Source: Eubacteriaceae bacterium
Lineage (GTDB): Bacteria > Bacillota > Clostridia > Eubacteriales > Garciellaceae
NCBI GenBank assembly: GCA_012838085.1
Contig: DUPX01000073.1
Span: 1-34,992, forward strand
Direction of reading: 5' to 3'
Length of the DNA stretch: 34,992 nt
The position numbers and the translations under genes are program-made. How positions within the stretch are numbered: the stretch's first letter is position 1; the number at the start of each line of letters is the position of its first letter. Shown here in pieces: positions 6,805 through 23,571 of the stretch. The notes below the pieces were generated by a model. It saw only the letters and a list, made by a program, of their open reading frames with translations, ran no database searches and was not told where the DNA came from.

Positions 6805-7371
6805 ATGGAAAAGCATTATATATATTTAATATTTTCTAAAACAGGAACTATTCTTTCCCAAGTCTTGTCTTTTTTTTGTGAAACTAAATATGTTCATTCT
6901 GCTTTTAGCTTTGATGATAGCTTTACCCAAATATATTCCTTTGGAAGGAAAAATCCCTACAATCCTTTTTCAGGAGGTTTCGTAATAGAAAACTTCTCAG
7001 CTGGGGTTTATTCTCGTTTTCCCCGGAGTGAATGTTACATAACAAAACTTGAGCTTACAGAAGAACAATACAGCACCCTTAAAAAGGAATTAGAAATTTT
7101 TATGTCCAAAAAGGATAGCTATAAATATAACTTCTTAGGTTTGTTTGGAGTACTATTTAATATCCCCATTAAAAGAAATAATTATTATTTTTGCAGTCAA
7201 TTTGTTTCAGAAATGTTAATAAAAAGTGGGATTTATAATGCAAATAAGCCTCCGGAATTAATAAAAACCGACGATCTTATCAGTATAGAAAACCAAGAAC
7301 TTTACTATAATGGTTTAGTTAACCAATGTGTTCCATTTAAACAATTATACAACTTCACCCTTAAACTCTGA
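6805..7371 (+). CDS. Permuted papain-like (YiiX/YaeF, NlpC/P60 superfamily) protein
   Basis: A 188-residue protein with the order His first, Cys later that marks circularly permuted papain-fold enzymes. H31 is in YVHSAFSFD near the N-terminus and C130 is in NYYFCSQFVSEMLI, the usual CSxF/CSEL-like block. Superfamily members cleave amide or ester bonds in peptides or lipid-linked substrates. The real substrate here is unknown. There is no signal peptide or membrane segment, so it is probably cytoplasmic. An AGGAG site precedes the ATG. It is monocistronic and divergent from the M20 peptidase. Confidence 0.65.
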   Translation: MEKHYIYLIFSKTGTILSQVLSFFCETKYVHSAFSFDDSFTQIYSFGRKNPYNPFSGGFVIENFSAGVYSRFPRSECYITKLELTEEQYSTLKKELEIFMSKKDSYKYNFLGLFGVLFNIPIKRNNYYFCSQFVSEMLIKSGIYNANKPPELIKTDDLISIENQELYYNGLVNQCVPFKQLYNFTLKL

Positions 7372-8745: not shown

Positions 8746-8777
8746 ATTAGTTACATATATTTACAAGGAGGCATACC

Positions 8778-9752
8778 ATGGCAATATTAAAAATTGAAAA
8801 GTCTGCTGTCTTAATAGGTAAATTAAGATTAGGGGCAAAGGCATATATAGGCCAAGGCTCTATTCTCCGATCAAAAGAGGATTCTATAACTATGGGTAAT
8901 TCCACTTGGGTATTGGAAAACTCTGTACTTATAGGTACTCCTGAAAATCCATTAAAGATAGGAAGTAAAACAGTTTTTGGTCATAAATGTATAGCCATTG
9001 GTGCAGAAATCGGTGACTTATGCGAGATAGGAAATGGCACTATATTCCTCCCTGGTTCAAAGATAGGAAATATGTGTATATTTGGGGAAGGAACTATAAT
9101 TCCTGAAGACGCTGTTATTCCAGATGAATCTGTAGTAGTGGGACGGCCTAGTAAAATCATAAGAAAACTTACTAATAAGGATAGAGAAATGATTTCTAGA
9201 ATGAGGGGTAATGATATTACCTTAAAAGCCTATCAAGAGAATATTATTAATAATGAATTAAAGGGAGAGGAAGAAATGGGTAAATTACATGGATATAAAG
9301 ATAAGTACCCTGTAGTGTCTAAGTCTGCAAAACTTTTTGATACATCAGAGGTTACAGGGGATGTGGTTATAGGAGATAATACAATAATAGCTGCCGGTGT
9401 AAAAATTATAGGAAATTCTCATGGTCCAGTTAGAATTGGTAATAATGTTCAAATTTTAGAGAATTCAGTATTACATCTCCTGCCCGACAATAAGTTAATA
9501 ATAGAGGACAATGTAACCATAGGTCCTGGATGTATTATTCATGGCACCACCATCGGAAAAAATAGTGTAATAGAGTCAGGGTCCACAGTATGTGATTATA
9601 GTAAATTAGGAGAAAATACCCTTGTTAAATCAGGAAGTCTTATAAAACAAAGAAGTACCTTTGAAGATAATCAGATAATTGAGGGCTTCCCAGCAAAAGC
9701 TATTGGACAAAATTCTGATATACTTAAAAGACCTAATTGGGGGATAAAATAA
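8778..9752 (+). CDS. Tandem-duplicated gamma-carbonic-anhydrase-like hexapeptide-repeat protein
   Basis: 324 residues made of two left-handed beta-helix units (about 1-150 and 167-312), each with gamma-CA/YrdA-like hexapeptide repeats and a GxPxK/A end motif (VGRPSKIIR, EGFPAKAIG). A usual gamma-CA has one unit of 170-210 residues. The three zinc histidines are split. In the N-half, H69 matches Cam His117, but the His81 and His122 positions are I52 and I74. In the C-half, H233 and H255 match His81 and His122, but the His117 position is P250. In Cam a site is built from His81 and His122 of one subunit and His117 of its neighbour, so the two halves together could form one site. An acyltransferase is less likely because no acyltransferase signature is seen. 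An AAGGAGG site precedes the ATG. The gene is monocistronic, with a strong hairpin after it. Confidence 0.85.
   Translation: MAILKIEKSAVLIGKLRLGAKAYIGQGSILRSKEDSITMGNSTWVLENSVLIGTPENPLKIGSKTVFGHKCIAIGAEIGDLCEIGNGTIFLPGSKIGNMCIFGEGTIIPEDAVIPDESVVVGRPSKIIRKLTNKDREMISRMRGNDITLKAYQENIINNELKGEEEMGKLHGYKDKYPVVSKSAKLFDTSEVTGDVVIGDNTIIAAGVKIIGNSHGPVRIGNNVQILENSVLHLLPDNKLIIEDNVTIGPGCIIHGTTIGKNSVIESGSTVCDYSKLGENTLVKSGSLIKQRSTFEDNQIIEGFPAKAIGQNSDILKRPNWGIK
9261..9278 (+). promoter_or_regulatory. Internal ribosome site and ATG at the start of the second gamma-CA unit
   Basis: Within the reading frame, AAGGGAGAGGAAGAA directly precedes ATG 9276 (Met167), where the second beta-helix unit begins. The spacing suits initiation, so a free C-terminal half of 158 residues may be made alongside the full protein. 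Purine-rich GAG/GAA codons can mimic such sites, so this is a prediction. Confidence 0.45.
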
Positions 9753-9899: not shown

Positions 9900-10136
9900 T
9901 TATTCCTTATTCTCATATATTGATATATATTCTCCTTCTTTAAATGAAAAAATCTTTTCTATCTCATCATCTATTAATTGCTCTATATCTTCTGCATTAA
10001 TCTTTGCACTAATGCTGCAATTGGAGCTTAATATCCTGGGCACTGGCATTAGTTCACAGGGGATATTATTTTTTTTGCATTTTCTCTGAAATTTTATGGC
10101 CCCTGAATGGGTGTAAAACAATACCATATATTCCAT
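9900..10136 (-). CDS. DUF3343 putative Se/S carrier-like protein
   Basis: A 78-residue protein matching the DUF3343 pattern: a beta-strand with a YTHSGAIKFQ start, then a short segment with two cysteines (C27 and C40) around PVPRILSSNCSIS, then an acidic helix. The family is annotated as putative selenium or sulfur carriers and is often found beside TusA-like and YedE genes, as here. It follows the TusA-like gene by 2 bases and is last in a yedE-tusA-DUF3343 operon. A TAGGA site overlaps the end of the upstream gene. The biochemical role is unproven. Confidence 0.8.
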   Translation of the reverse strand: MEYMVLFYTHSGAIKFQRKCKKNNIPCELMPVPRILSSNCSISAKINAEDIEQLIDDEIEKIFSFKEGEYISIYENKE

Positions 10137-10138
10137 AA

Positions 10139-10345
10139 TTATTTCCTAGCCTCTATTAGAAAAGAATCTTCCAATTCTTTGATGGATACATTATATCCCG
10201 AATGCTTTAGAAAGCTCTCTACATTTTCCCTAGCCACATTATTATCCACAATAACATCTACTCCTTCAGGACTCTTTTCTATCCCCTTCTTTGTCATCAA
10301 CACTGGTTGTGGACAGCTCATTCCAGAAGTATCTATTTTATCCAC
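10139..10345 (-). CDS. TusA/SirA-like sulfur or selenium carrier
   Basis: A single TusA domain (MDKIDTSGMSCPQPVLMTKK...) with the sulfur-accepting cysteine in the CPQP motif, residue 11 from the chosen start. TusA proteins carry persulfide, and selenium-linked relatives may carry Se between a desulfurase-like enzyme and SelD. The frame opens at GTG 10354, but GGGGG sits immediately next to it. GTG 10345 has GGGGG 8 bases upstream and is chosen here, giving 68 residues. Unlike the longer YedF proteins there is no C-terminal DsrE-like domain. Its place between yedE and DUF3343 supports a selenium role by association. Confidence 0.85.
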   Translation of the reverse strand: MDKIDTSGMSCPQPVLMTKKGIEKSPEGVDVIVDNNVARENVESFLKHSGYNVSIKELEDSFLIEARK

Positions 10346-10361
10346 ATTATCCACCCCCTTA

Positions 10362-11417
10362 TTATTTTTTCACTGATATTTCTGAATTACTATAGGAAAT
10401 TATCCACAGGAATATAAAGCATATTACCACCGCCACCTGTCCATTGAAGGTAGCACCTGCACCGCTGGAAGCCAATCCAAAATTATGGGCTATGGCAGCA
10501 CCCATAATCATACCCATTATGGATATTACCGAGTCAATATTTCCTTCACCTGATAGAATTAGTTGCCTTAAAGGACAGCCTCCTAATAGTACTGATCCCC
10601 AGCCTACTACGGCCATTCCCAAGAAGTTCCATAATCCATCTGTATGGGCTATAGGCTGGTCAGCAAATCCCAAGTTAAAAAATCCAAAACTCAGATTAGC
10701 AATAAAGCTAAATACAATTATTGAGATAAATCCTACTAGTAAATGGGAATTATTAAATAACATCATATCTCTAGTGCCGCCTACCATACATAGCCTTGTT
10801 CTTTGAGCCAAGGCCCCTACTATAAGACCAGCTAATAGTGATATGGCTATTGGTGCCCTTAGAGATCCTGGACCACTTTCACTAAAAAATATAAAAGCTG
10901 GTGAGGCAATCAATAATACTAGCAAACCTATACTCACTCCAGGGAAAACATAGCCCTCAATTTTAGTCACTTTATAGTTTCTTTTTAAATTAAAGCCTTT
11001 GTTTAGGAATTTAACACCTATCCATATTCCCGATACAAATCCTGCTATACCTAGGAGTGCATTTAAATCCCCTCCACCTAATCTAAGGACCATCCTTAAG
11101 GGGCAACCTAAGAATACTAAAGCTCCTATCATTACCACTATCCCTAACATAAATCGTATAAAGGGGGAAGAACCTCCCCTAGATTGAAATTCCTTATTTT
11201 TCAGAGCTAATATAGATGCACCTACTATTAATCCTATAATCTCTGGTCTTATGTATTGGACTACCTCTGCCCTGTGAAGACCTATCCCTCCTGCTATGTC
11301 CCTTAAGAAACAGGCTATACAAAATCCCATATTGGCAGGATTTCCAAAATATACTAATAATACAGATATGATTCCTACTATTCCACCTGCAATAATAATT
11401 TTAGTTTTATTACCCAT
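10362..11417 (-). CDS. yedE: YedE-family putative selenium transporter
   Basis: A 351-residue polytopic membrane protein of the YedE/YeeE family with about nine or more hydrophobic segments. It is an internal duplication: LGCPLRMVLRLGGGD (103-117) and LGGCPLRQLILSGEGN (278-293) are equivalent, with cysteines C105 and C281. More cysteines occur at C33 and C36 (FCIACFLRD) and C210 (RLCMVGGTRD). Such cysteines handle thiosulfate in YeeE; the YedE branch is proposed to import a selenium compound. An AAAAGGAGGG site precedes the ATG. The TusA-like gene follows within 17 bases. Confidence 0.9.
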   Translation of the reverse strand: MGNKTKIIIAGGIVGIISVLLVYFGNPANMGFCIACFLRDIAGGIGLHRAEVVQYIRPEIIGLIVGASILALKNKEFQSRGGSSPFIRFMLGIVVMIGALVFLGCPLRMVLRLGGGDLNALLGIAGFVSGIWIGVKFLNKGFNLKRNYKVTKIEGYVFPGVSIGLLVLLIASPAFIFFSESGPGSLRAPIAISLLAGLIVGALAQRTRLCMVGGTRDMMLFNNSHLLVGFISIIVFSFIANLSFGFFNLGFADQPIAHTDGLWNFLGMAVVGWGSVLLGGCPLRQLILSGEGNIDSVISIMGMIMGAAIAHNFGLASSGAGATFNGQVAVVICFIFLWIISYSNSEISVKK

Positions 11418-11444
11418 TTTCTCCCTCCTTTTGTGTTTAATAAT

Positions 11445-11474
11445 ATTTTAACAAGCTTAATATTTAATGTACAA
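11445..11474 (-). promoter_or_regulatory. yedE operon promoter
   Basis: On the minus strand, TTGTAC (11469-11474) and TAAAAT (11445-11450) are 18 bases apart. The -10 box has an upstream TGN extension. Transcription would begin near 11438, about 20 bases before the ATG. Confidence 0.6.
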
Positions 11475-11524
11475 TAGGTTTAATTAATAGGAGCTATACT
11501 TAGGATAAGTAAAATTTATAGTGA

Positions 11525-11553
11525 TTGTGTAATTTTTTGTAAACTTATATAAT
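11525..11553 (+). promoter_or_regulatory. Promoter of the class V aminotransferase-lysR unit
   Basis: TTGTGT (11525-11530), 17 bases, then a perfect TATAAT (11548-11553), about 46 bases before the ATG. Two TTGTAAA-type motifs near the -10 box (around 11538 and 11556) might be part of a LysR target. The divergent yedE promoter is about 50 bases away, so one regulator could act on both. Confidence 0.55.
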
Positions 11554-11598
11554 GATTGTAAAGATGGATTGTATTAAATACATATAGGTGGGATATAT

Positions 11599-12747
11599 AT
11601 GAATTTTGTATATTTGGATAATGGTGCCACTTCCTATCCTAAGGCTCCAGGGGTAGCTGAAAGCATGTCAGATTTTATATTAAATATTGGTGTTAATGTA
11701 GGACGGGGAGCCTATGATATCTCCTATAAAGCAGAACATACTGTCTATGAAACAAGGGAGTTATTATGTGAACTTTTTAATTTTAATCAACCAGAGAATG
11801 TTATTTTTACAAAAAACATAACGGAAAGTATGAATGTTCTAATTAAGGGATTATTAAAAGATGGAGATCATGTGATAATTTCTTCTATGGAGCATAATGC
11901 TATTATGCGGCCATTAAATTCTCTGGGACAAAAAATAAGCTATACCAGAATTTTAGCAAATTCTTTAGGGGAAATTAATATTGAGGATGTTAAAGTTTCT
12001 ATAAAGCCTAATACTAAGGCTATAATAATGAGCCATGCTTCAAATGTATGTGGGACTATTTTAGATTTGGAGAAGGTAGGTCAGCTATCCAGAGAAAACA
12101 ATCTGTACTTTATAATAGATTCTGCCCAGACCGGAGGGTTTTTAGATATGGACTTTGAAGGGCTTAATGCAGATGCTATTGGATTTACTGGCCATAAAGG
12201 CTTACTAGGACCTCAGGGTATAGGAGGCTTTATAATCAATAATAGATTAGCCAAAGAATTAAATAGCTTTATAGAGGGGGGAACTGGCAGTCTATCAGAT
12301 ACAGAGTCTCAGCCAGAATATCTTCCAGACAAATTTGAAGCTGGCACATTAAATATTCCTGGTATATACGGGCTAAATGCCTCATTAAAGTATTTATTAA
12401 AGTGGAGTGTAAAAAGTATTAGAGAAAAGGAAATTGCCCTTTTAGATAAATTTTTAGAAGGCCTATTAAATATTAATAATATAAAAATTATTGGCAAGAA
12501 GACCTCCCAAGGAAGAACGGCTATAGTGTCCTTGGATTTTCCTAAAGATGATAATGGTTTAATAGCCCACCAATTAAGTAGGGATTTTAATATCATGACT
12601 AGAAATGGACTTCATTGTGCCCCTTCTGCCCATAAAACCTTAGGCACCTTTCCTGAAGGTACCATAAGATTTTCCTTAAGCCATTTTACCACCTTTAAAG
12701 AAATAGATTATACTCTGGATTGTATAAATAAATTAGCAAATAATTAA
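11599..12747 (+). CDS. Class V aminotransferase, EF2568-type cysteine desulfurase/selenocysteine lyase family
   Basis: A PLP-dependent enzyme of fold type I and 382 residues. It has the N-terminal YLDNGATSYPK motif, the Schiff-base lysine K200 in GFTGHKGLLGPQG and a C-terminal cysteine C340 in TRNGLHCAPSAHK, placed like the reactive Cys of SufS-type desulfurases. The family (EF2568 type) recurs next to YedE and DUF3343 genes in clostridia and is thought to mobilise sulfur or selenium from (seleno)cysteine. A GGTGGGAT site precedes the ATG. lysR follows in the same direction. Whether it prefers selenocysteine cannot be read from the sequence. Confidence 0.88.
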   Translation: MNFVYLDNGATSYPKAPGVAESMSDFILNIGVNVGRGAYDISYKAEHTVYETRELLCELFNFNQPENVIFTKNITESMNVLIKGLLKDGDHVIISSMEHNAIMRPLNSLGQKISYTRILANSLGEINIEDVKVSIKPNTKAIIMSHASNVCGTILDLEKVGQLSRENNLYFIIDSAQTGGFLDMDFEGLNADAIGFTGHKGLLGPQGIGGFIINNRLAKELNSFIEGGTGSLSDTESQPEYLPDKFEAGTLNIPGIYGLNASLKYLLKWSVKSIREKEIALLDKFLEGLLNINNIKIIGKKTSQGRTAIVSLDFPKDDNGLIAHQLSRDFNIMTRNGLHCAPSAHKTLGTFPEGTIRFSLSHFTTFKEIDYTLDCINKLANN

Positions 12748-12768
12748 TATCTTTTAAGGGGGATTATT

Positions 12769-13680
12769 TTGGAATTTAATCAATTAGAAAGTTTTATATC
12801 TGTTGTAAAGCATAAGAGTTTTTCTAAGGCTGCCCGAGAGCTATTTTTGACCCAACCTTCTATTAGCAATAATATTCAAAATCTGGAAAAAGAGTTAGGT
12901 GCTGTTTTACTTGATAGAAAAGGCAAAACAATTGCATTAACTGATTCGGGAAAGATATTTTATAGATATGCCCTAGAGCTTATAAATACAAGGGAGCAAG
13001 CGATCCATTCTATTAAAGACCACTTAAATAAGATTGAAGGTAAGATAGAATTAAAGGCCAGCTCTATTCCAGAACAATATATTTTACCTTATATAATAAA
13101 AGATTTTACTAAAATCTATCCTAAAGTCACCTTTTCTATCATTCATAAAAACTCTATGGATATAATTGATGATATTCTAATAGGAAAAGAAAGTTTTGGA
13201 ATAGTGGGTATAAAATGTGAGGCAAAGATGTTGGAATATATTAATTTCTACCAAGATGAGCTAGTGCTAGCTACCCCTTATGAAAAAGAATATCCTAAAA
13301 CTTCTTCTAATATTTTAGATATTAATATTTTATTTTCGGAAAATTTTATTTTTAGAAAGGAAGGATCAGGTACAAGGCTATTTATTGAAGAAAGATTATC
13401 TGAGAAAAATATTAGCTTGGAGGATTTAAATATTATATCTATCATAGATAGTAATGAAATGATAAAAAAGATGATTGAATTATCACTAGGTGTTAGCTTT
13501 ATATCTAAGATAGCTATAAAAGACCAAGAAACACTAAAAATTATAAAATCCTATAAAATAGAGGGTTTAGATTTAACCCGAGATTTTTATTTTGTTTATA
13601 ATAAAAATAGAACACTCTCTCCCCTAGTGGAGACTTTTAAAGATTTTCTGCTAAATTGGCCAGGACTTGATATTATATAA
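12769..13680 (+). CDS. LysR-family regulator, selenium-metabolism type
   Basis: 303 residues with an N-terminal winged helix-turn-helix (QLESFISVVKHKSFSKAARE, then LFLTQPSISNNIQNLE) and a C-terminal LysR substrate-binding domain. The start is a TTG with AAGGGGGAT 7-8 bases upstream. It begins 21 bases after the aminotransferase stop, so the two form one unit. LysR regulators of this type accompany the YedE/EF2568 locus in Firmicutes and are named as selenium-metabolism regulators. The likely targets are the divergent promoters at 11445-11553. The effector is unknown. Confidence 0.88.
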   Translation: MEFNQLESFISVVKHKSFSKAARELFLTQPSISNNIQNLEKELGAVLLDRKGKTIALTDSGKIFYRYALELINTREQAIHSIKDHLNKIEGKIELKASSIPEQYILPYIIKDFTKIYPKVTFSIIHKNSMDIIDDILIGKESFGIVGIKCEAKMLEYINFYQDELVLATPYEKEYPKTSSNILDINILFSENFIFRKEGSGTRLFIEERLSEKNISLEDLNIISIIDSNEMIKKMIELSLGVSFISKIAIKDQETLKIIKSYKIEGLDLTRDFYFVYNKNRTLSPLVETFKDFLLNWPGLDII

Positions 13681-15740: not shown

Positions 15741-16703
15741 CTAATCCCCCATAAGTAAAGCCATAATAGCTTTTTGCACATGAAGTCGATTTTCCGCTTC
15801 TTCAAATACCATAGAATTCTTTCCCTCTATAACTTCCTTTGTCACTTCTTCACCACAATGGGCAGGCAAACAATGTAGAAAAATGCTGTCTGCCTTTGCC
15901 TGGGAAAATAATTCTTTATTTACCTGAAAGGGAAAGAATACTTCATATCTTCTAAGGGCTTCCTCCTCTTGGCCCATACTGGTCCAGACATCTGTATATA
16001 CTATATCTGCATCTTCAATAGCTTCTTGAGGATCTTGGGTTATTAGAATCTTAGATCCGGAATATTCACTATTTAAATACCCTTTTTGTAAAATATCTTT
16101 TTGGGGTTGGTACTCTTTAGGTCCCCCAAAGGATATATTTATACCCACCTTTGTACAGGCTATCAACAGAGAATTAAATACATTATTGCCATCTCCAATA
16201 TAGGCAAGTTTTAATCCCCTTAATACACCCTTTGCTTCATATATTGTCATAAGATCTGCAAAGGCTTGACAAGGGTGTAATAAATCTGTGAGACCATTTA
16301 TAATAGGCATAGAACCAAACCTTGCCAAATCTTCTACATCCTTCTGGGAATAGGTTCTAATCATACAGCCGTCTAAATATCTAGATAATACCTTGGCAGT
16401 ATCTTCTATAGATTCTCCCCTTCCTAATTGTATATCTGAGGAATTTAGGAATAATCCATAACCCCCTAGTTGATGGATTCCCACTTCAAAGGATACCCGT
16501 GTTCTAGTAGAAGATTTTGAAAAAATCATCCCCAATGTTTTTCCCTTTAAAATATTATTGTGAAAAATCTTCTTCTTATTTTCCTTCTTCAACTTTAAGG
16601 CTAAACTCAACACCTGATATATTTCGTTGGCACTATAATCCTGCATACTTAAAAGATGACGTTGAGTAAAGTCCTCCCTAGGGATATAATTATATAAATC
16701 CAT
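15741..16703 (-). CDS. argF: Ornithine carbamoyltransferase
   Basis: It transfers the carbamoyl group to ornithine to make citrulline. The carbamoyl-phosphate motif STRTR is at 65-69, HPCQAFAD at 143-150 and the ornithine-loop HCLPAH at 277-282. These distinguish it from aspartate carbamoyltransferase and from acetylornithine carbamoyltransferase, although close relatives such as the YgeW group cannot be excluded by motif alone. The 320-residue length is normal. A GGAGAAA site overlaps the end of argD, which stops 3 bases before the ATG, so the pair is tightly coupled. Confidence 0.93.
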   Translation of the reverse strand: MDLYNYIPREDFTQRHLLSMQDYSANEIYQVLSLALKLKKENKKKIFHNNILKGKTLGMIFSKSSTRTRVSFEVGIHQLGGYGLFLNSSDIQLGRGESIEDTAKVLSRYLDGCMIRTYSQKDVEDLARFGSMPIINGLTDLLHPCQAFADLMTIYEAKGVLRGLKLAYIGDGNNVFNSLLIACTKVGINISFGGPKEYQPQKDILQKGYLNSEYSGSKILITQDPQEAIEDADIVYTDVWTSMGQEEEALRRYEVFFPFQVNKELFSQAKADSIFLHCLPAHCGEEVTKEVIEGKNSMVFEEAENRLHVQKAIMALLMGD

Positions 16704-16706
16704 TTA

Positions 16707-17972
16707 TTATTTCTCCTTTCCAAGGTCATTAAATTTTCCCTTATAGCCAAAACTACTAAAGGATTGGTCCAGTCCATTAATAAACCTTTCTATTTCTTGT
16801 TTTTCAATAATAAGAGGGGGTACAAATCTTAAGGTATTATCTCCTGTACAATTTATAATAAAACCTCTATTTAACATATCTAAAACTACATCCTTTCCCT
16901 CTATACTAGAGTTTAACTCCAAGCCTAGCATCAATCCTTTTCCACGAATATCCTTTATAAAGGAATAACTGTTCTTTAAATCTAGAAGTCGTCCTTTGAA
17001 AAATGCAGCTTTTTCTTCCACTTTTTCTAAAAATTCATCTTCTATAATGGTGGATAAAACTGCTAGACCTACACTTGTGGCCAGAGGGTTTCCGCCAAAG
17101 GTGGTACCATGATCTCCCGGTTCTATAGCGGAGGCAATTTCATCCTTTGCCACTACTGCCCCTATTGGAATACCTCCTCCCAACCCCTTAGCCAAAGTAA
17201 ATATATCTGGTTCAATATCATAGTGTTGATAACCAAAAAGTTTTCCTGTTCTGCCAATGCCGGTTTGCACCTCATCAAAAATAAGTAAAATGTCCTTTTT
17301 GTCGCATAGTTCTTTTAATTCCTTCATATAGTCTAAGTTGGCCTCAACAATTCCACCTTCCCCCTGGATAGGTTCTACCATAACAGCACAGGTGCTATAA
17401 TTTATAGCTTTTTTTATTGCATTTATATCATTATAGGGAACATGGACAAATCCAGTAGGCATAGGCTCAAAGGGTTTTTGATATTTTTCTTGACCAGTGG
17501 CTGATAGAGTTGCCATCGTTCTGCCATGGAAGGAGTTTAAGGTAGTTATAATTTCATATTTGTGCTTGCCTTTTGCATAAAAATACTTTCTTGCTAGCTT
17601 TATAGCACCTTCATTTGCTTCTGCCCCACTATTGCAAAAAAATGCCTTGTCGCCACAACTATTCTCCACTAAAGCCTTTGCTAAAAAACTCTGGGATTTT
17701 ATATAAAAGAAATTAGAGCAGTGGAGCAACTTTTTTGACTGGGTCTCTATAGCATTTAAAATAGCAGGGTGGCCATAGCCTAAAATATTTACTGCAATAC
17801 CAGCTAAAAAGTCTAAATAGGCTTTCCCTTCTCTATCATAGAGGGTTGATCCTTCACCATATTCAAAGACCGCTGGTAGACGTGTGCCAAAACAATTTAA
17901 ATAATACTCCTGGTCTAAAGCCTGGATTTCTTCAAAACTAAGATTTTCTTTATCAATATCCTTAATTTTCAC
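16707..17972 (-). CDS. argD: Acetylornithine aminotransferase
   Basis: A class III PLP aminotransferase that converts N-acetylglutamate semialdehyde to N-acetylornithine. In the 421-residue protein used here, [19 protein letters not shown] lies near 112-130, [11 protein letters not shown] at 233-243, and the PLP lysine K262 in TLAKGLGGG. The frame is open upstream to 18056, but those 28 extra codons lie inside argB and have no family match. GTG 17972 has AGGGGGAT about 8 bases upstream and begins [11 protein letters not shown]. It overlaps the argB stop by 11 bases, which implies coupling. Confidence 0.93.
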
Positions 17973-18846
17973 TATTATGATCCCCCTTTTCCACCATAGT
18001 TCCAATCCCCTTATCAGTAAATATTTCCAAAAGTATGGGATGGGGAATGGTTCCATTTAGTATATGGGTTTTATTAACCCCTTCTTCCACACCTTTTATA
18101 CAGCCTAAAACTTTTGGTATCATGCCCCCATCTATGATACCTTTCTTAATTAGTTTGTGAATTTCCGGAACAGATATAACAGATATTAAGCTTTCGTTGT
18201 TTGTCGGATCCAAGAAGATTCCATCTATATCCGTTAGGTATATAAGTTTTTCTGCCTTTAAGGCAATAGCTATTTCACTGGCCACAATATCAGCATTTAT
18301 ATTGTAGCTTTGACCCTTTTTGTCAGTACCTATAGGTGCAATAACAGGAATATATTCATCATCTGCCAGTACTTCTATAATTCTACTATTTATTTTACTT
18401 ACTTCTCCAACAAAGCCTAAATCCACCCCTTCTACAGGGGCTGCTTTTTCCACTTCTATAAGATTACCGTCCTTACCACAGATGCCTATAGCCTTTCCCC
18501 CAAGGGCATTTAATTGGGATACTATTTCTTTATTAATAGAACCTGCCAATACCATTTCTACCACATTGACTGCATCTTTATTAGTGACCCTTAAACCTTT
18601 ATAAAACTTTGATTTTATATCCATAGCATTTAGCATCCGGCTAATCTGGGGTCCACCTCCATGGACTACTACAGGATTCACCCCCACATATTTTAATAGG
18701 GTAATATCCTCCATTATTGTCTTGGTAATTTCCGAATCAATCATGGCATTACCACCATATTTTATTACAACAGTCTTTCCATTGAGTTTTTGAATATAGG
18801 GTAAAGCCTCAATCAATATATTAGCTTTGTAGATCAATGTATTCAT
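17962..18846 (-). CDS. argB: Acetylglutamate kinase
   Basis: An amino acid kinase-fold enzyme that phosphorylates N-acetylglutamate. The N-terminal [10 protein letters not shown] and [14 protein letters not shown] motifs bind phosphate and substrate. YLTDIDGI and the late [13 protein letters not shown] complete the family pattern. Acetylglutamate kinases with an extra N-terminal helix are usually arginine-inhibited; here the N-terminus ([21 protein letters not shown]) includes such a helix, so feedback inhibition is plausible. It is 294 residues, with AGAAGG before the ATG. It is 18 bases from argC and overlaps argD. Confidence 0.95.
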
Positions 18847-18864
18847 TTAAACACCTTCTTTATT

Positions 18865-19905
18865 TTATAAATACCATCCTATTTTATTTAATCCTGTGGT
18901 TTCTTCTAAATCAAACATTATATTCATATTTTGTATTGCTTGCCCCCCCGCCCCCTTTATTAAATTATCTATAGCCGTCAAAATAATAATCCTATTATTT
19001 CTTTTATCTATGGTAAATCCTATATGACAACCATTGGAGCCATTTACATACTTTAATTCCGGTAGTTTTCCTTCAGGATAGATACTAATAAATGGTTGAT
19101 TTTTGTAAAACTCCTTATATACTTCATATATATCTGAGAAACTATTAGTCTTCTTAAGGGAAGCATATATAGTGCTAAGTATACCCCTTTTTATAGGTAG
19201 TAGGTGGGGGGTAAAGGAAATAGTTATATCCTGGCCTGCCAGTAGTCCTAACTCCTGTTCAATTTCTGAAGTGTGGCGATGATTGGCCACTTTATAAGCT
19301 TTTATGTTTTCATTTACTTCACAAAAACTAAGCTCTACCGAATTCGAACGACCTGCACCTGTTCCACCAGACTTAGAATCCACTATAATAGATTTATTAT
19401 CTATCAATTGGCCCTTTAACAAGGGAGAAAGACCTAAAATGGCACTGGTGGGATAACAGCCAGGATTGCCCACTAAAGTACTATCTCTTATATCCTTTTT
19501 ATAAAGTTCTGGCAATCCATAAATAGAGTTTTTTAAGAGTTCAGGATTAGGATGGGCATAGCCATACCACTCTTCATAAACCTTTTCCGATAGATAACGA
19601 TAATCTCCACTAAGATCTATAATCCTTAATCCCTTTTTATAAAGCTTCGGAATAATCTTTGAGGATGCTCCATGGGGAAGGCTGGTAAATACCAGATGGC
19701 TTTCATCAGTAATCTTCTCTATATCTAAACTGCCAAGAATAATCTTCTTATGAAGGGAAAATTGGGGATAAATATCCTGCAATTTCTTCCCCCCATGACT
19801 ATGAGAAATTAAATTAATAAGTTTAACATTTGGATGGGAGGATAACAGCCGAACCAACTCAATCCCTGCATACCCTGTAGCACCAATAACACTAACTTTG
19901 ATCAT
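18865..19905 (-). CDS. argC: N-acetyl-gamma-glutamyl-phosphate reductase
   Basis: An NADPH-dependent reductase. It has the N-terminal Rossmann motif IGATGYAGIELVRLL, the catalytic cysteine C150 in VGNPGCYPTSA and the HRHTSEIEQEL histidine motif near 208-213. The length of 346 residues is typical of the long bacterial form. GGGGTGA precedes the ATG. It is the first gene of the operon, directly after an ARG box and promoter, so it marks the regulated start of argC-argB-argD-argF-GNAT/cDPGS. Confidence 0.96.
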   Translation of the reverse strand: MIKVSVIGATGYAGIELVRLLSSHPNVKLINLISHSHGGKKLQDIYPQFSLHKKIILGSLDIEKITDESHLVFTSLPHGASSKIIPKLYKKGLRIIDLSGDYRYLSEKVYEEWYGYAHPNPELLKNSIYGLPELYKKDIRDSTLVGNPGCYPTSAILGLSPLLKGQLIDNKSIIVDSKSGGTGAGRSNSVELSFCEVNENIKAYKVANHRHTSEIEQELGLLAGQDITISFTPHLLPIKRGILSTIYASLKKTNSFSDIYEVYKEFYKNQPFISIYPEGKLPELKYVNGSNGCHIGFTIDKRNNRIIILTAIDNLIKGAGGQAIQNMNIMFDLEETTGLNKIGWYL

Positions 19906-21430: not shown

Positions 21431-22096
21431 CTAATCACCTTTATATAAACCTGTGGTCCTGCTCACATCCATAACAAATATAATTCCCTTTCCCCTTTTA
21501 TTTGCATCTATGCTGCTTTCTATTGAGCTTACTATTGCTTCTGTATTTTCCACCCTGGATAATATGAGAACTATATCCTTTTCTGGTTCTATATCTATAT
21601 TAAAAAGTTTTGCCGTTTCTTCTGTTCCTGAACCCCTACCATGTATTATAGTACCCCCTGTTGACCCGGCCTTATTGGCTGCTTGGATTACTTCCTCTGA
21701 CATTCCTTTATTTACAATTGTAAGAATAGCTTCATATTTTACCACAAAGTCACCTTCCTTACTCTTTTTTAAATTATGCTTGCCAGAATTTATTTCTAAT
21801 ATTTGTTTCAAGGGAATGGAAAAAAGAATACCATGATTAGGTTTGTTTAGATGAAATTGTTTTTCCAGTTCCTTATGGATATGTTGATCTAGATCACCTT
21901 TAACACCCATTAATACTATTTCTTTTCTGCTCTCATTAAGGCCTAGGAGGGAAAGGACATGACTTCTGACTGTTCCCTTTCCTAAAAGAATTGTTCCCCC
22001 TGTTGCACCAAGCTTTTTTGCTAATTGTATTACCTTAGTAGCCTTCCCACAATCTACAATCACAAAAAGTAAATAAAAATTATCTAGAAGATCCAT
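21431..22096 (-). CDS. Tandem PII-like protein
   Basis: 221 residues with two PII-like ferredoxin-fold domains. The first (about 1-105) has GATGGTILLGKG (30-41) and the second (about 115-221) has GSTGGTIIHGRG (144-155), followed by RGKGIIFVMDV (201-211) and RTTGLYKG at the end. Classical PII proteins are single domains of about 112 residues that trimerise and bind ATP/ADP and 2-oxoglutarate. Here the T-loop region is short, and the uridylylated Tyr51 region is not conserved. It follows a DUF1538 membrane protein by 8 bases, so it probably senses a ligand and controls that partner. GGGAGG is 11 bases before the ATG. Confidence 0.85.
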   Translation of the reverse strand: MDLLDNFYLLFVIVDCGKATKVIQLAKKLGATGGTILLGKGTVRSHVLSLLGLNESRKEIVLMGVKGDLDQHIHKELEKQFHLNKPNHGILFSIPLKQILEINSGKHNLKKSKEGDFVVKYEAILTIVNKGMSEEVIQAANKAGSTGGTIIHGRGSGTEETAKLFNIDIEPEKDIVLILSRVENTEAIVSSIESSIDANKRGKGIIFVMDVSRTTGLYKGD

Positions 22097-22104
22097 CAGT
22101 AAAT

Positions 22105-23571
22105 TTACCTCCCTCTAGTTTTCCATCTATATATTAGCCCTAATGTTTGAACAGCCACCAGTGGTGTCATAGCTACCATAGCAATTATTCCAAATCCATC
22201 TATAAGAAGATTTGCAGTGGGAATAGCATTGGTAGCCCCCTGAGCAAATGCTAATACAAAAGTAGCAGTCATAGGTCCAGATGCAACCCCTCCAGAATCA
22301 TATGCAATTCCTACGAAAATAGAAGGGACAAAAAAACTAAATAATGCACCTAAGGCAAAGCCCGGTAGTAAAAAGTGCCAAAGTTTTAAATTAGGTATCA
22401 TAATCCTTAACATAGAAAAGGCCATAGCAAAAGCAATACCAACAGATAAAGTTAATAATATTACCTTTCGCTTTATATGTCCTGATGTTACCTCTTCAAC
22501 CTGTTCCGTCAAAACATAGACAGCCGGTTCAGCAATAACAATCACCATACCCAATAGAAATCCAATGGCAGGCAATACCCATTTTGCCTCTAAGGCTGCA
22601 ATACCCTGTCCCATTTCCCTACCTACTTCCATAAAGCCAGCATTTACACCTAGCATAAATATAGATAATCCTATATATGTATATAGCATACCCTTTAGTA
22701 TTTTATTTCTACTGCCTTTTTTTAATTTAAATGAAAAATAGTTAAATATTATAAATAATATTAATAAGGGGGCCAAGGTTATTATTGATTCCAAAAGTAT
22801 TTTAGGTAATAAATCCAGATAAGGGCCTATAATTCCCGTATGGTTTTTAAATGCTTCCATGTGACCTTCTAGCTTTACTTTGCCCTTTATAATATTTAAA
22901 AGCATTAGTGCAATAATGGGACCTCCAGAAGCAAAACCCACAAGACCAAAGCTATCTTCTTCGGAACTTTTTCCGCCCTTTAATTGGGATACACCTAAAC
23001 CTAATGCTAGAATAAATGGGGTAGTTATGGCACCTGTGGTAGCACCTGAAGCATCCACAGAAAATGCTAAAAACTCTTCAGATACCATTATTCCCAATAC
23101 TAAGATTAGGGTATAAATAGTGGCATAGGATCTATTTAGGGGGATTCCTAATAATATTCTGATTAATCCATATGCTACAAGTATTCCTACTCCTACTGAT
23201 ACAACAATTAAGACTAGTGGTCCTGATATAATCCCACCAGTAGCCACATTTATTTGTTTGGCTAATATTTGTATATCTGGTTCTGCCACATTTATAAAAA
23301 ACCCTAATATAAAACCTAGCAGTAAAACAAAGCTATACTTGTTTGTTTTAGCGATGCTTTCACCCATTAGGTTGCCTATAGGGGTTATACCAATATGAAC
23401 CCCCATTAAAAAAATTGACAGCCCAATTGTTACTAACATAGCACCGATAATAAAACGAGCTAGCATTTCTATCTCAATGGGAACTAATGAAAAGCTAAGT
23501 ATAATAACTAATATTGTTATAGGTAATACTGAAAATAGTATATCTTTAAATGTTTTTGTTAGTAAGTTCAA
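22105..23571 (-). CDS. DUF1538 membrane protein
   Basis: 488 residues with about twelve or more membrane segments, built from two homologous halves. LSIFLMGVHIG (51-61) repeats as LSIFMLGVNAG (302-312). NVAEPDIQ (94-101) repeats as VIAEPAVY (345-352), and DASGATTGAITTPF (173-186) as DSGGVASGPMTATF (425-438). This two-fold repeat is typical of transporters. The DUF1538 family has no established substrate. It is paired with a PII-like protein. The start is TTG with AAGGGG 7 bases upstream. A transporter of ammonium-like, anionic or metal substrates is possible but cannot be chosen. Confidence 0.88.
   Translation of the reverse strand: MNLLTKTFKDILFSVLPITILVIILSFSLVPIEIEMLARFIIGAMLVTIGLSIFLMGVHIGITPIGNLMGESIAKTNKYSFVLLLGFILGFFINVAEPDIQILAKQINVATGGIISGPLVLIVVSVGVGILVAYGLIRILLGIPLNRSYATIYTLILVLGIMVSEEFLAFSVDASGATTGAITTPFILALGLGVSQLKGGKSSEEDSFGLVGFASGGPIIALMLLNIIKGKVKLEGHMEAFKNHTGIIGPYLDLLPKILLESIITLAPLLILFIIFNYFSFKLKKGSRNKILKGMLYTYIGLSIFMLGVNAGFMEVGREMGQGIAALEAKWVLPAIGFLLGMVIVIAEPAVYVLTEQVEEVTSGHIKRKVILLTLSVGIAFAMAFSMLRIMIPNLKLWHFLLPGFALGALFSFFVPSIFVGIAYDSGGVASGPMTATFVLAFAQGATNAIPTANLLIDGFGIIAMVAMTPLVAVQTLGLIYRWKTRGR

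Follow-up and report, generated by a model that had tools for sequence, protein, structure and literature searches.

A two-domain gamma-carbonic-anhydrase-like protein with its predicted metal ligands divided between the two halves of one chain

The window analyzed here, the whole stretch of 34,992 nucleotides from an Eubacteriaceae bacterium (contig DUPX01000073.1), contains an ORF (8778–9752, + strand) encoding a protein of 324 aa with two gamma-carbonic-anhydrase-like left-handed beta-helix halves in one chain. In trimers of gamma-carbonic anhydrase (gamma-CA), His81 and His122 are contributed by one subunit and His117 by its neighbour (PMC4519908). Each half of this protein has kept only part of this ligand set, and what the two halves retain sums to exactly one full set. 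As shown in Table 1, the gene has a strong RBS and is followed by a terminator-like stem, which suggests that its transcript ends with this gene or contains no other.

Table 1. Features of the two-domain gene and protein (residue equivalents in Cam numbering; counts refer to orthologues)
Feature	Position	Strand	Remarks
RBS AAGGAGG	8765..8771	+	6 nt upstream of ATG 8778; read directly
N-half, residues 1-157	8778..9248	+	gamma-CA-like beta-helix and C-terminal helix; sole ligand is the His117 equivalent
R31, Arg59 equivalent	8868..8870	+	kept in 36/38
E47, Asp76 equivalent	8916..8918	+	invariant Glu; C-half counterpart E228, invariant
I52, lost His81 equivalent	8931..8933	+	never His in 38 (I28, V7, L1, E1, K1)
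H69, His117 equivalent	8982..8984	+	His in 38/38
I74, lost His122 equivalent	8997..8999	+	never His in 38 (I24, L8, V4, M1, R1)
N86, replaces pocket Met	9033..9035	+	invariant; Met in 63/65 stand-alone gamma-CAs
E104, replaces Ala	9087..9089	+	invariant; Ala fixed in 65 stand-alone gamma-CAs
Linker, residues 158-169	9249..9284	+	9-12 aa in 36/37 (joint alignment)
C-half, residues 170-310	9285..9707	+	gamma-CA-like beta-helix without C-terminal helix; His81 and His122 equivalents retained
H215	9420..9422	+	fourth invariant His, 37/37; in or one residue beside the Glu62 column
H233, His81 equivalent	9474..9476	+	His in 37/37
P250, lost His117 equivalent	9525..9527	+	Pro in 37/37
H255, His122 equivalent	9540..9542	+	His in 37/37
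C-terminal tail (PxW motif) and stop	9708..9752	+	short; replaces the gamma-CA C-terminal helix
Terminator-like stem-loop	9758..9793	+	15-16 bp stem; directly 3' of the gene

Hexapeptide repeats were identified in both halves with Pfam, and the NCBIfam gamma-CA family NF050158 matched over two stretches with 177.6 bits, which did not reach the cut-off of 250. A search of PDB sequences gave gamma-CA matches at residues 170–289 and 84–157, the latter aligning without gaps with residues 98–171 of gamma-CA 9jyw; no single solved chain spanning both halves was found among the PDB sequences. The AF2 model of the C-half, made from an alignment of both halves together (14 rows), had a pLDDT of 93 and a pTM of 0.89, and its best PDB matches were gamma-CAs (TM about 0.88, 0.8–0.9 Å, Z 27.6 over 155 residues). 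A full-chain AF2 model from seven orthologues had a pLDDT of 58.8 and meaningless PDB matches, and was not used. The model supports a gamma-CA-type left-handed beta-helix for the C-half, and homology supports the same predicted fold for the N-half. The tail after P305 was 18–25 residues long in nearly all orthologues vs at least 30 in stand-alone gamma-CAs, and the C-terminal helix of the C-half was absent from all complete orthologues as well as from the model. The N-terminus of the N-half is short, as it is in some stand-alone gamma-CAs. In the linker, M167 was present in 33/38 orthologues and may be a relic of the start codon of the second domain.

To compare the ligand positions, both halves were aligned jointly with 65 stand-alone gamma-CAs taken from the loci, all of which (65/65) had His at the three ligand columns. 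I52 and H233, H69 and P250, and I74 and H255 fell into the single columns of Cam residues 81, 117 and 122, respectively, and the residue assignments of the original prediction were therefore correct. Three His ligands within one subunit type, as in gamma-CAs, were not found: the N-half had one of three and the C-half two of three, and a complete set arose only with both halves combined, a pattern fixed across the 38 orthologues. The predicted complementarity of the losses, along the natural subunit interface, was kept in every one of them, and the loss of histidines was not random. Because H69, H233, H255 and P250 are invariant and His never occurs at residues 52 and 74, the split pattern is, as judged from this alignment, fixed and selected rather than the product of decay. 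The fourth invariant histidine, H215, had been missed in the original prediction; it sits one beta-helix turn (18 residues) ahead of H233. H171, the only remaining His of the protein, varied among orthologues. The possibility that the conserved C71, C82, C100 and C252 serve as additional ligands was rejected, since the hexapeptide register assigns them to the inward-facing position of small residues, and one of them lies where the canonical gamma-CA of the same genome also has Cys.

The 38 orthologues came mostly from Tissierellia and Peptostreptococcales, with amino-acid-fermenting anaerobes as hosts, among them Clostridium mobile, Sedimentibacter hydroxybenzoicus, Acetoanaerobium pronyense, Gudongella sp., Peptoclostridium acidaminophilum and Tissierellia MAGs. 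The protein was encoded in 20/249 genomes of one order and 15/297 of another, and in 391 genomes sampled evenly from the class of the window, the window's own copy was the only one, indicating a narrow family. The alignment was built with the first eight orthologues and later with all 38; pairwise identity averaged 60%, with a minimum of 33%. The most divergent orthologue (L095 1537–2505, − strand), 38% identical to the window protein, still keeps the split: it has the four conserved His and Pro250, with Glu and Arg in place of the two lost ligands of the N-half. No phage homologue of the two-domain protein was found in a search for one. The only annotated record, that of the Peptoclostridium orthologue, names it 'DapH/DapD/GlmU-related protein'. 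This orthologue, WP_025436643.1 (L141 9001–9981), is located on an 808-kb megaplasmid of P. acidaminophilum, about 8 kb from the proline reductase gene prdB and with an NADH-dependent hydrogenase nearby.

To determine which interface is conserved, the residues of each face tabulated for Persephonella gamma-CA (PMC8000050 Table 2) were mapped onto both halves, face A being the His81/His122 side and face B the His117 side. Entropy was compared with a paired sign-flip test at the 27 positions that belong to only one of the faces. The mean entropy was 0.34 bits for C(A) plus N(B) vs 1.19 for N(A) plus C(B) (p = 5e-6), and 0.39 vs 1.23, respectively, when the ligands were removed (p = 3e-5). The contrast persisted without the most divergent orthologue, without H215, and in 13 sequences less than 65% identical. 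The outer faces displayed the reverse difference (N 0.82 vs C 1.07), so the contrast is not due to one half simply being more conserved. The signal lies at the level of the hexapeptide turn, as positions shifted by +1 to +3 still gave 0.33–0.61 vs 0.95–1.27, with less of it left after shifts of −1 to −3; for the B face alone, p was only 0.03. Within these sequences, the constrained pair is the H81/H122 face of the C-half and the H117 face of the N-half, that is, the two faces with retained ligands.

This pairing matches the geometry of the termini. In gamma-CA trimers, the N-terminus of the H81/H122 donor touches the C-terminus, a C-terminal helix, of the H117 donor (PMC8000050 Table 2), with contact bonds Val3–Val167 and Arg5–Phe165 (PMC8000050). 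In the two-domain protein, the H117 donor is the N-half, followed by a linker of about 12 residues and the H81/H122 donor, so that by homology the two faces would pack within one chain. A head-to-tail join through the natural subunit contact would make C(A):N(B) the intrachain interface, and of the two possible 1 + 2 ligand splits, the observed one would complete exactly this interface. The opposite N(A):C(B) interface appears degenerate, since all three of its ligands are lost and the C-half helix that would have occupied it is gone. The analysis thus suggests a complete site within a single chain, which had not been proposed originally. The original statement that a trimer could hold at most one complete site is right as geometry, and the ligand inventory, counted from residues alone, allows one C(A):N(B) site per trimer. 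As the C-half has lost its C-terminal helix, the presumed trimer may fail to close, and heterotypic contacts could not by themselves close it. Conservation of R31 and E228 on the 'dead' N(A):C(B) faces indicates that this interface may still form.

The surroundings of the predicted site were compared with the 65 stand-alone gamma-CAs, in which Asp61, Asn73, Gln75 and Asp76 are fixed in 65/65. Asp61, Asn73 and Gln75 were replaced by K33, W44 and L46 in the N-half and by N213, Q225 and L227 in the C-half, respectively. Among Arg59, Asp61, Asn73, Gln75 and Asp76, only Arg59 survived, and only in the N-half. The pocket Met position is S267 in the C-half. That the protein is still a carbonic anhydrase, as in the original prediction, is not supported by this comparison, since it retains none of Asp61, Asn73, Gln75, Asp76 and the pocket Met. 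Retention of the predicted metal site amid rebuilt surroundings argues against decay as well as against simple CO2 hydration. The loss of Asp61, Asn73, Gln75 and the pocket Met, together with the fixation of E47/E228, N86, E104 and H215, makes a substrate other than CO2 more likely. The reading that we consider the most probable, with fair though not high confidence, is that a single chain would bear one full His3 metal site (H69, H233 and H255) with a rebuilt second shell and a substrate that is likely not CO2. A divalent metal (Zn or Fe) would activate water at this composite site, and H215 could possibly act as a proton shuttle or fourth ligand. A more speculative extension, which we put forward only tentatively, is a two-domain beta-helix metalloprotein freed from the gamma-CA trimer: the chain would represent two thirds of the old trimer, with one composite His3 (perhaps His4 with H215) site and a new chemistry used in the metabolism of anaerobes that ferment amino acids.

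Several other explanations were weighed against a composite site with a new substrate. The protein might still be an ordinary CO2 hydratase with one gamma-CA site per chain and no need for the others, as in the trimer of plant complex I. Each of the three ligands is indeed kept once, H215 adjoins the position of Glu62, the proton-transfer residue of Cam (PMC8000050), E47/E228 is a conservative replacement of Asp76, and zinc-bearing gamma-CA trimers with one site exist (PMC7447434, PMC7567890). However, neither side has kept Asp61, Asn73 or Gln75, Asn takes the place of the CO2-pocket Met in the N-half, the NF050158 score is below its cut-off, and 29 of the 38 genomes carrying the two-domain protein already have a stand-alone gamma-CA; the genome of the window, for example, also encodes a canonical one with all three His (contig 107, L031 4181–4729). 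The two-domain protein is therefore probably not an ordinary CO2 hydratase, and we regard this explanation as unlikely. The remaining nine genomes (G528, G529, G531, G533, G617, G668, G672, G682 and G801), whose completeness was not given, had no stand-alone gamma-CA at E <= 1e-15. This distribution bears on a mixed trimer with a stand-alone gamma-CA, in which two complete sites would arise, one from the C-half and His117 of the partner, the other from H69 and the partner's His81/His122. The three lost ligands do make up a single N(A):C(B) interface and both other interfaces would be complete, and a possible partner is encoded in most of the genomes. All nine genomes without it nevertheless keep the same split, indicating that a partner protein is not needed, and the genes for the two proteins were not neighbours in the loci examined, which leaves the mixed trimer very improbable.

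The halves could also assemble separately into NNN and CCC trimers, with a site of H215, H233 and H255 in each C-half subunit and H69 kept for another reason. H215 is as invariant as H233 and H255 and precedes H233 by one turn, and homotrimers are usual for gamma-CA-like chains (PMC8000050). Such an assembly would leave unexplained both the conservation of the N-half H117 and C-half H81/H122 faces, whose homotypic partners N(A) and C(B) vary more, and the match of the split to the geometry of the termini; we give it little credence. Similarly little weight falls on a metal-free scaffold or binding protein in which the remaining His would be structural leftovers. The protein has indeed lost the catalytic second shell, and inactive gamma-CA relatives are known in the plant CAL subunits (PMC7447434), but four His remain invariant while positions 52 and 74 drift in the same sequences, which is unlike leftovers.

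Regarding the origin of the protein, the N-halves and the C-halves each formed one clade in the trees (100/100 each), so the join, as far as the phylogeny indicates, was probably a single event before the family spread. The C-half grouped weakly with YtoA-like gamma-CAs (81/73), and a tree with the N- and C-halves constrained together was not rejected (p-AU 0.54). The trees fit either an internal duplication or a fusion of two paralogues and cannot tell them apart. In the original prediction, duplication followed by subfunctional loss had been preferred to decay; the fixed pattern disfavours decay, but the duplication was not established by this test. In another bacterial family of the same order, a canonical gamma-CA domain is fused behind a long N-terminal region in proteins of about 430–600 aa (L034 1854–3161, L035 1485–2774 and L037 2080–3669, and also L033, L038 and L039).

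Like the gamma-CAs (Cam, CamH and Gram-positive YtoA-like proteins; 9jyw, 3vnp, 1xhd, 9qev), the two-domain protein has a left-handed beta-helix and ligand positions 81/117/122, and its predicted site would also sit between two beta-helices. Unlike them, it has two domains per chain, each half incomplete alone, a C-half without the C-terminal helix, and a replaced set of second-shell and pocket residues. The gamma-CA/CAL heterotrimer of plant mitochondrial complex I (PMC7447434, PMC7567890) likewise has unequal subunits in which ligand losses leave one site. Its subunits are encoded by separate genes and its complete zinc site lies between two CA-type subunits, whereas the protein described here is bacterial and its ligands are split exactly 1 + 2 between the halves of one chain. 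The CcmM–CcmN complex (7d6c) is also a mixed beta-helix assembly of the gamma-CA superfamily, though made from two carboxysome genes without fusion. Hexapeptide acyltransferases, to which the annotation 'DapH/DapD/GlmU-related' refers, share the hexapeptide-repeat beta-helix, but the closest sequence and structure matches of the two-domain protein were gamma-CAs. We treat it as a variant of the gamma-CA kind rather than as a carbonic anhydrase. Trimers of unequal gamma-CA subunits that hold a single complete site are already known; the literature searched contained no single-chain 1 + 2 split fixed throughout a family, nor any other description of a two-domain or split-site gamma-CA, most subscription papers being outside the scope of the search. 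If the composite site is real, the protein would be a naturally occurring example of fusion bringing an obligately intersubunit enzyme site into a single chain. With the ligands divided as the old interface dictates, it would be a clean record of a homo-oligomeric active site turning asymmetric. The family is a conserved and unnamed one, and marks a predicted rebuilt gamma-CA site in fermenting anaerobes.

A conserved gene context was sought across the 38 loci and not found. The frequent neighbour clusters were rejected because they are shadows of the gene on its reverse strand; those remaining were common to few loci only or consisted of common ABC-transporter genes. In the window, a selenium-metabolism cluster lies beside the gene (10362–13680), encoding a YedE-family selenium transporter on the − strand, and a cysteine desulfurase/selenocysteine-lyase-like protein and a selenium-associated LysR regulator on the + strand. 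The ORFs at 6805–7371 (+) and 10107–10376 (+) had no Pfam or NCBIfam match. A P-II-like protein adjoining a DUF1538 membrane protein is encoded at 21431–23571 (−). An arginine biosynthesis run with argC, argB, argD and the ornithine carbamoyltransferase gene was identified at 15741–19905 (−). In the ORF list, argD and argB overlap by 95 nt, and the family match of argD begins at residue 58, indicating that the true start of argD is probably downstream.
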